This document shows, piece after piece, positions 5,340-7,389 of a stretch of 64,000 nucleotides of DNA; positions within the stretch are counted from its first letter, which is position 1; the number at the start of each line of letters is the position of its first letter. Origin of the DNA: Roseiflexus sp. RS-1 (GTDB lineage Bacteria; Chloroflexota; Chloroflexia; Chloroflexales; Roseiflexaceae); assembly GCF_000016665.1 (NCBI RefSeq), contig NC_009523.1, forward strand, positions 4,277,501-4,341,500, read 5' to 3'. Position numbers and translations under genes: made by a program. The notes below the pieces were generated by a model. That model saw only the letters and a list, made by a program, of their open reading frames with translations, made no database searches and was not told where the DNA came from.

Positions 5340-5903
5340 CTACTTGATGCGTTCGATATACTCGCCAGTGCGGGTGTCGACCCGCACATAATCGCCCTGA
5401 TTGACGAATGCCGGCACCGAAATAACCGCGCCGGTTTCGAGCGTCACCTGCTTGTTCACATTGGTCGCCGTATCGCCACGCACCGCAACGCTGGCCTCCG
5501 TGACCTGCAAGGTCACAAACAATGGCGGTTCGACCCCCAGAATCTTATTGTCATCGTAGAACAGGATATCCGCCATTTCGTTCTCTTTGAGAAACTTCGC
5601 TGGCTCGCCGATCATTTCTTCCGGCACCTCGATCTGCTCGAATGTTTCGGTGTCCATAAAATGATAGACGTCGCCGTCGCGGTAGAGGAACTGCATCGGG
5701 CGCTTCTCGACACGCACGATCTCGATTTCGGAACCGGCGCGTACCCGCTCTTCAATCGTTTTGCCGGTCTCCAGGTTCTTCAGTTTCATGATCACCATCG
5801 CGCGCCAGTTGCCAGGGGCATGGTGGTAGAACTCAACAACGCGGTGCAACTGACCATTGTAGCGGATGATCATATTGGTGCGCAAATCTGATGTTGTTGC
5901 CAT
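5340..5903 (-). CDS. efp: translation elongation factor P (Asn at the loop tip)
   Basis: A 187-residue EF-P, which binds ribosomes stalled at polyproline and promotes peptide bond formation. The three beta-barrel domains are complete, from DLRTNMIIRYNGQLHRVVEF to the C-terminal signature GDYVRVDTRTGEYIERIK. The tip of domain I reads HHAPGNWRAM, so the position that is the modified lysine in Escherichia coli (PGKG) or the rhamnosylated arginine of the EarP group is asparagine here, and no EpmA or EarP gene is in the window. A long open frame continues upstream, but the ATG at 5903 matches the family start and has GGAG ten bases before it. Confidence 0.93.
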   Translation of the reverse strand: MATTSDLRTNMIIRYNGQLHRVVEFYHHAPGNWRAMVIMKLKNLETGKTIEERVRAGSEIEIVRVEKRPMQFLYRDGDVYHFMDTETFEQIEVPEEMIGEPAKFLKENEMADILFYDDNKILGVEPPLFVTLQVTEASVAVRGDTATNVNKQVTLETGAVISVPAFVNQGDYVRVDTRTGEYIERIK

Positions 5904-6322: not shown

Positions 6323-6607
6323 ATGCATGGCGAATACAAAATCCCTGGCGGAAAACTGATTGTCGTCGATCTTGATGTTATCGACGGCGCGCTGCGCGAT
6401 GTGGTGTTGAGCGGCGACTTTTTTCTCGAACCGGCGGAAGCGTTGGAGTGGATGGCTGCGGCGCTTGAAGGTCTCCCGGCGAATACGCCGGTCGAAACCA
6501 TTGCCACACGGGTACGCACGGCAGCGGCGCATGCCGAATTGATCGGCATTACGCCGGAAGGCGTCGCTGAAGCGGTGCGCCGCGCCATTCAGGAAGGAAC
6601 ACCATGA
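6323..6607 (+). CDS. lipoate-protein ligase accessory subunit (LplB-like C-terminal domain)
   Basis: A 94-residue stand-alone version of the lipoate-protein ligase C-terminal domain. It starts MHGEYKIPGGKLIVVDLDV, the typical K-x-PGGK-hydrophobic signature, followed by FFLEPAEALEWMAAAL and ends in a short helical segment. In bipartite archaeal ligases such as that of Thermoplasma the small LplB-type subunit is needed with LplA to adenylate lipoate. It overlaps the LplA-type gene by four bases (ATGA), so the two are translationally coupled and almost certainly act together. Confidence 0.75.
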   Translation: MHGEYKIPGGKLIVVDLDVIDGALRDVVLSGDFFLEPAEALEWMAAALEGLPANTPVETIATRVRTAAAHAELIGITPEGVAEAVRRAIQEGTP

Positions 6608-7389
6608 GCATTCCATCATCATCGCCCTGGCGCGCATATGACTGGCAGTTGATCCAGAGCGCGCCGATCCATCCGGTCATGCACATGGCGCTCGACGAGG
6701 CGTTGTTGGAGGAAGTGGCTGCCGGGCGGCGCAAGCCGACGCTGCGTATCTGGGAATGGGCGGCAAGCGCCGTGGTCATCGGGCGTTTCCAGTCACTGCG
6801 CAACGAGGTCGATCTCGAAAGCGCACGACGCTACCAGGTGCAGGTTGTCCGCCGCATCACCGGCGGCGGAGCGATGTTCATCGAACCGGGCAATACGATC
6901 ACCTATTCGATCTACGCCCCGGTCGAACTGGTGGCAGGTATGAGCATGGTCGACTCATACGCCTTCTGCGATCGGTGGGTGCTCGACGCGCTGGCATCAC
7001 TCGGCGTGGAGGCGTGGTACCAGCCGATCAACGACATCACCTCGGCAGCTGGCAAGATCGGCGGGGCGGCGCAAACGCGGCGCAATGGCGCGGTGCTGCA
7101 CCACGTGACGATGGCATACGATATCGACAGCGCCAGGATGCTGGAGATCCTGCGGATCGGGCGTGAGAAACTCAGCGACAAGGGGATCGCCAGCGCCGCC
7201 AAACGGGTCGATCCGCTCCGCCGCCAGACCGGATTGCCGCGCGAGGCGATCATCGCGCGGATGATCGAGACCTTCCGCGCTCAGCATGGGCTGACCGAAT
7301 CGGCGATCACACCAGACGAATGGGAAGCGGCAGAACGACTGGTCGAAACAAAATTCGGCACAGAGGCGTGGTTGCGTGCCATACCATGA
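6604..7389 (+). CDS. lplA: lipoate-protein ligase A family catalytic subunit
   Basis: A 261-residue BPL/LPL-fold protein. Visible motifs: MHMALDEALLEEV, LRIWEWAASAVVIGRFQS, the lipoyl-AMP binding stretch VVRRITGGGAMFIEPGNTITYS, and INDITSAAGKIGGAAQTRRNG with the conserved catalytic lysine. It lacks the C-terminal domain found in Escherichia coli LplA; that domain is the preceding overlapping gene. It attaches lipoate to E2 subunits and glycine cleavage H protein. An octanoyltransferase (LipM-like) activity is an alternative because the families share the fold, but the adjacent LplB-type gene favours ligase. Confidence 0.82.
   Translation: MSIPSSSPWRAYDWQLIQSAPIHPVMHMALDEALLEEVAAGRRKPTLRIWEWAASAVVIGRFQSLRNEVDLESARRYQVQVVRRITGGGAMFIEPGNTITYSIYAPVELVAGMSMVDSYAFCDRWVLDALASLGVEAWYQPINDITSAAGKIGGAAQTRRNGAVLHHVTMAYDIDSARMLEILRIGREKLSDKGIASAAKRVDPLRRQTGLPREAIIARMIETFRAQHGLTESAITPDEWEAAERLVETKFGTEAWLRAIP

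Follow-up and report, generated by a model that had tools for sequence, protein, structure and literature searches.

EF-P is usually presented as needing a modified lysine or arginine at its tip to work. Asparagine takes this place in a small fraction of the family: in the 2019 survey by Volkwein et al., 2.23% of 1166 EF-Ps carry an asparagine tip, and Pro32 co-occurs with Asn34 in 100% of these cases; the combination of Pro32 with an arginine tip is very rare (2.33%; PMC6544042). The same paper suggests a DHS-like link for asparagine- and lysine-tip EF-Ps and reports that E. coli EF-P lost its activity when asparagine was put in place of Lys34 (PMC6544042). Asparagine tips are mentioned again in the discussion of PMC11611912, the source for EfpL, an EF-P paralogue able to act with an unmodified tip. 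The asparagine-tip class is already in print; the coupling of further loop positions to the tip residue, described here from an EF-P of Roseiflexus sp. RS-1, is the added finding. Lineages whose sole EF-P is unable to carry any known tip modification offer a natural test of the rule that EF-P must be modified, and the coupled positions 31, 34, 35 and 36, together with two lysine forms nested among asparagine-tip relatives, indicate which residues to swap together.

An asparagine-tip EF-P as the sole EF-P of its genome

We analysed a 64,000-nucleotide stretch of the Roseiflexus sp. RS-1 chromosome, hereafter the window, that contains one efp gene (Table 1). The reading frame runs from an ATG start to a TAG stop and translates into a full-length product, which scores 234.8 bits against the NCBIfam efp model TIGR00038 (cut-off 185.8), passes NF001810 and exceeds the Pfam cut-offs for all three EF-P domains (KOW-like PF08207, OB PF01132 and C-terminal PF09285). 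EF-Ps are also its best relatives of solved structure, and an AlphaFold2 prediction, modestly confident (mean pLDDT 79.5, pTM 0.55), agrees with solved EF-Ps along its entire length; we used this model for the EF-P fold only and not for tip geometry. The loop reads E-F-Y-H-H-A-P-G-N-W-R-A-M-V, with Asn32 aligned to E. coli Lys34. Loop positions 31–36 are given below in E. coli numbering, in which Asn34, Trp35 and Arg36 are Asn32, Trp33 and Arg34 of the window protein. The first-pass annotation had noticed a PGNW tip with asparagine where most EF-Ps have lysine or arginine, and translation, alignment and EF-P profiles all bear this out. PGNWRA is present in all eight EF-Ps read from the window's family (f1), which share 71–97% identity with the window protein and include four from additional genomes of its genus, and the asparagine tip is therefore no sequencing accident.

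Table 1 Features of the asparagine-tip EF-P locus and of the DHS-family gene elsewhere in the genome
Feature	Position	Strand	Basis or remark
efp, EF-P of the asparagine-tip type	5340-5903	minus	translation (187 aa), NCBIfam/Pfam, single copy, fold
PGNWRA, tip of the beta3-beta4 loop	5799-5816	minus	residues 30-35, E. coli 32-37
AAC codon, Asn32 at the E. coli Lys34 position	5808-5810	minus	translation, alignment
Trp-Arg accompanying the Asn tip, E. coli positions 35 and 36	5802-5807	minus	translation, loop comparison
LplB and LplA, small and large lipoate-protein ligase subunits	6323-7389	plus	separate, overlapping genes
DHS-family protein without the catalytic lysine	L135:2993-3973 (genome ~1.4975 Mb)	plus	GGGIAGDFP motif

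A second EF-P with a lysine or arginine tip, the case that the first-pass annotation had set against its own reading, is absent from the genome. The assembly is a single contig of 5,801,598 bases rated 100% complete, and searches with the Pfam OB domain profile, with the protein and with a mixed alignment of asparagine-, lysine- and arginine-tip EF-Ps each returned exactly one EF-P; we rejected a second copy on this basis. The genome also encodes a ValRS-like protein containing PPPNVTG, the conserved proline run of valyl-tRNA synthetase that is one reason why EF-P is needed.

Asparagine tips recur across Chloroflexota and other phyla

EF-P matches occur in 387 Chloroflexota genomes, of which part had their tips read; every fetched locus was read, and the Chloroflexota loci were chosen with a bias to high scores and with one or few genomes per family. 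Across the 203 EF-P loci read in Chloroflexota and elsewhere, the tip residue is asparagine in 94, arginine in 67, lysine in 39 and glutamine in 3. Among the Chloroflexota read, 49 genomes encode an asparagine-tip EF-P. The tip is found in 8 of 8 f1 genomes with an EF-P match, in 17 of the 18 genomes read in family f2 (18 of 22 with a match; G024, G118, G253 and G260 were left out) and in families f29, f17 and f24/f40. Arginine tips prevail in the other Chloroflexota read, and f3 and f4, families in the window's own order, carry only these. We also searched named genomes with patterns lacking the loop residues; among the best 80 loci kept, 44 tips are asparagine, 35 lysine and 1 arginine, and the asparagine tips come also from Bacteroidota, Chlorobiota, Ignavibacteriota and Hydrogenedentota.

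Of the 49 Chloroflexota genomes with an asparagine-tip EF-P, 35 have no other EF-P and 14 encode an arginine-tip one as well, and a single EF-P is present in 24 of 26 asparagine-tip genomes outside Chloroflexota. Several unusual EF-Ps were met along the way. Divergent paralogues with a glutamine-containing loop (for example HSGTAQQKG and HAGSGQMQG) accompany an arginine- or asparagine-tip EF-P in four genomes (L118 in G208, L119 in G309, L120 in G365 and L251 in G402). Several Chloroflexota combine an arginine tip with Pro32 in loops such as HHKPGRGNA (L071 in G283, L052-L054, L060 and others). Two EF-P fragments on overlapping stretches of one genome (G346:C1:573382-573947) look like a frame-broken third EF-P.

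Loop positions 31, 35 and 36 are coupled to the tip residue

We counted loop residues over the 193 distinct sequences among the 203 loci, which are related sequences and not independent events. All 85 distinct sequences with Asn34 have Pro32 and none has Lys31; position 35 is tryptophan in 61 and leucine in 22 (83 of 85 together), and position 36 is arginine in 82 and lysine in 2 (84 of 85). By contrast, the 105 distinct sequences with Lys34 or Arg34 have Lys31 in 103 cases, Gly35 in 102 and a basic residue at position 36 in only 2. Exceptions at positions 31 or 36, or asparagine tips lacking tryptophan or leucine at 35, come from five loci (L165, L104, L121, L132 and L084), among them PGNTRA in L104 and PGNKPG in L165, an asparagine tip with its basic residue at position 35. 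The asparagine-tip loop stays nearly invariant while the proteins around it drift to 40–60% identity. Asn34 is thus one part of a coupled loop that also comprises Trp/Leu35 and Arg36, and a basic residue is retained two positions on from the tip. One genome of Desertivirga xinjiangensis (G418, the genome of L191) encodes two closely related EF-Ps with the loops HRTPGNLRA and HRTPGKGGA (L241, L250), which makes them a ready-made pair for loop tests.

Known tip modifications and the efp neighbourhood

The best match of the window genome to the EpmA model TIGR00462 scores 227.9 bits against a cut-off of 286.9 and lies in a 495-aa frame that we read as LysRS. EpmA over the cut-off is likewise missing from all 49 asparagine-tip Chloroflexota genomes, in a search that was positive in two control genomes and in G007, and from all 26 other asparagine-tip genomes. 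G007 is the only one of 72 Chloroflexota genomes with EpmA over the cut-off, and its gene lies directly beside a lysine-tip EF-P. A second lysine-tip genome, G030, has a 303-aa frame in the same place beside EF-P that falls just under the cut-off at 273.6 bits. Both belong to f15, where a lysine-tip EF-P adjoins an EpmA-like gene of 318 aa (G007: L117, L142) or 303 aa (G030: L132, L143), and this E. coli-like lysylation pair occurs only in that family among the 72 genomes. G007 also encodes a second, odd EF-P with the loop HVKM-KHTA (L116). In G206, the lysine-tip genome of f2, no EpmA scores over the cut-off. The EarP profile PF10093 matches in 0 of 72 genomes, but the control was likewise without a match in any genome, so that this negative is weak. 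N-glycosylation of the tip was rejected, as an N-x-S/T sequon at the tip is missing from all 94 asparagine-tip EF-Ps.

We also looked in the surroundings of efp for a modification gene linked to it. In 8 of 8 f1 genomes efp adjoins a YjeF-type NAD(P)H-hydrate gene, and lipoate-ligase genes lie beside it in 3 of the 8 f1 flanks, each of just 1.5 kb. In the flanks searched in f2 and f29, efp has none of the window's neighbours close by, and we therefore rejected a linked modification gene among them. The lipoate-ligase genes of the window are transcribed away from efp.

Lysine forms nest within the asparagine-tip clade

To follow the history of the tip we used a careful tree of 95 rows, with the loop columns left out, in place of a quick tree of 98 rows. 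Nine loci with long branches, odd loops or near-duplicates were dropped (L104, L116, L117, L118, L119, L121, L132, L155 and L159) and six were added (L174, L179, L185, L191, L250 and L251), of which L251 is a long branch of unsure placement. One group of 50 rows (support 92/88) takes in all asparagine tips except L162, L186 and L163. Two lysine tips nest within the asparagine clade. One, in G206 of family f2 (HVKPGKGGA), lies inside a 100/99 clade, with weak support (91/45) for the split that puts it next to f2. The other, in the second copy of G418 (HRTPGKGGA), falls among Sphingobacteriaceae in a clade supported at 100/100. Each combines Gly35 with a position 36 that is not basic, such that 34, 35 and 36 differ together; Lys31 is present in the G206 form and absent from the G418 form. 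Altogether the tree holds 5 changes between asparagine and non-asparagine tips, from which 3 independent pairs on supported branches can be drawn; position 36 goes in the same direction in 2.9 of 3 on average, and a sign test on three pairs reaches p 0.25 at best, too few for significance. The loop coupling is in this sense phylogenetically thin.

The tree also bears on how the window's lineage came by its EF-P. The f1 and f2 asparagine-tip EF-Ps cluster with their counterparts from f17 and f29, families outside the window's class (100/99). One f1 genome, G302, has both tip kinds, and its arginine-tip copy groups with the arginine-tip EF-Ps of f3, f4 and f5 (96/82), as would be expected of an old resident copy. 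On the simplest reading, the window's lineage may have gained its asparagine-tip EF-P from elsewhere and lost the arginine-tip copy, and G302 would show the in-between state of this replacement.

How an asparagine-tip EF-P may work

The first-pass annotation took an asparagine tip to imply either an unmodified active factor or an unknown modification. This was a fair dilemma, drawn up without the published class, the loop coupling or the sole-copy status of the protein. As judged from sequence, the window's efp probably encodes the housekeeping EF-P, a member of an asparagine-tip subfamily with a loop that would function unmodified at its tip and with a relocated cation. The subfamily loop has given up Lys31 and Lys34, exchanged Gly35 for a bulky tryptophan or leucine and placed a basic residue at position 36. 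Arg36 could then make the contact made elsewhere by modified Lys34, held in position by Trp35 and by the conserved Pro32-Gly33 turn. The sequence, the single copy, the coupled loop and the lack of EpmA are results of the analysis; the unmodified state of the tip, the activity of the factor and the Arg36 contact are inferred. Relief of polyproline stalling by this protein would fit its single copy and the PPP-containing ValRS-like protein, which lend it indirect support. That asparagine-tip EF-Ps are the sole copy in 35 of 49 Chloroflexota genomes and in 24 of 26 others in our view favours activity without tip modification over an unknown modification of asparagine. The strongest contrary fact is the inactivity of the E. 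coli K34N protein. That swap changed position 34 alone and left 31, 35 and 36 as they were, and the coupling predicts that such a single swap should fail, which accounts for the result without being proof.

A modification of the tip asparagine or of the neighbouring arginine by some enzyme with no established connection to EF-P is unlikely in our estimate, and the DHS-like protein is the candidate for it. The co-occurrence behind this candidate is real: the DHS family (PF01916) is present in 42 of 49 asparagine-tip Chloroflexota genomes (one of them, G228, by a weak match with E 3.7e-7) and in 24 of 26 other asparagine-tip genomes, as against 7 of the 23 Chloroflexota genomes that lack such a tip; the sole genome lacking a DHS-like protein among 18 f2 genomes tested is G206, the lysine-tip member (L039 and L136); and a link of a DHS-like enzyme to such EF-Ps has been suggested in print (PMC6544042). 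It is set back by the absence of a DHS-like protein from 6 of 7 asparagine-tip f29 genomes and by the proteins themselves, which in 27 sequences from 26 genomes carry GGGIAGDFP, GGGVPKNF, GGGSPKNF or a close form, with a kind that does not follow the tip; all three kinds are represented among the four arginine-only genomes read. Asparagine is, moreover, a poor nucleophile for DHS-type chemistry. The window genome's copy has GGGIAGDFP, a form common to this genome, its f2 relatives and Bacteroidota, in which a glycine aligns with the catalytic lysine of human DHS (PMC10981699), and no DHS-like protein with that lysine was met in the genome, the family member present having the motif replaced. 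A Thermus DHS homologue makes a polyamine (PMC10981699), and the best NCBIfam model for the window genome's protein is one for homospermidine biosynthesis, at 107.4 bits against a cut-off of 450. We keep the DHS-like modifier as an outside candidate.

It is distinctly improbable that the asparagine-tip EF-P acts weakly or in a specialised role and leaves polyproline stalls mainly to other factors such as ABCF ATPases or YebC2. The inactive E. coli K34N protein (PMC6544042) would fit, as would the coexistence with an arginine-tip EF-P in 14 of 49 Chloroflexota genomes, the arrangement of a specialised paralogue, and in B. subtilis stalls of this kind are targets of YfmR and YebC2 (PMC11990639, PMC11381351); a factor of this sort is hard to reconcile with genomes in which it is the sole EF-P (35 of 49 and 24 of 26) or with a loop held nearly invariant through drift to 40–60% protein identity. 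That the asparagine is incidental, whether through isolated neutral drift at the tip or through an error of annotation or sequencing, is scarcely credible: its low frequency in surveys (PMC6544042) is all that speaks for it, and 94 asparagine tips among 203 loci, conserved in more than one phylum and linked to residues 31, 35 and 36, contradict it.

Returning to the unmodified loop with a relocated cation, we can extend it beyond the window. With close to even confidence, leaning slightly against, we suggest that the asparagine-tip EF-Ps of Chloroflexota, Bacteroidota and Chlorobiota could be a second, modification-free EF-P solution in which the loop acts as a swappable module: the cation would have moved from 34 to 36, a bulky residue at 35 would replace the rigidity or reach of the modification, and the module would have displaced an arginine-tip EF-P in the window's lineage and gone back to a lysine form at least twice.

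Comparison with known EF-P types

The E. coli paralogue EfpL (YeiP) shares with the window protein the EF-P fold and the action with an unmodified tip that we propose here, but has an extended loop, an unmodified Arg33 tip and a place mostly alongside a lysylated EF-P (PMC11611912). The window EF-P is not an EfpL: two EfpL models, whose cut-offs are 264.05 and 216 bits, give it 104.0 and 112.0 bits, and its loop has no insertion when aligned with the lysine-tip loci. With the E. coli EpmA-modified lysine type it has in common the three domains and the Pro32-Gly33 turn, and it differs in lacking the tip lysine, Lys31 and Gly35 and in belonging to a genome without EpmA over the cut-off. The arginine type has the same fold and is the counterpart in most other Chloroflexota read, but the window protein has its arginine at 36 and not 34 and retains Pro32, which is nearly absent from arginine-type EF-Ps in the survey (PMC6544042). 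With Asn34 and Pro32 it departs from the EarP arginine type, defined by Arg34 and no Pro32. In the passages and sections of the open-licence literature searched, we found no mention of linked changes at 31, 35 and 36. The window EF-P belongs to the asparagine-tip class of PMC6544042, which it resembles in Asn34 and Pro32; to the tip and Pro32 noted in the relevant passages of that survey, our analysis adds the loss of Lys31, Trp/Leu35, Arg36, the single copy and a proposed history of replacement.
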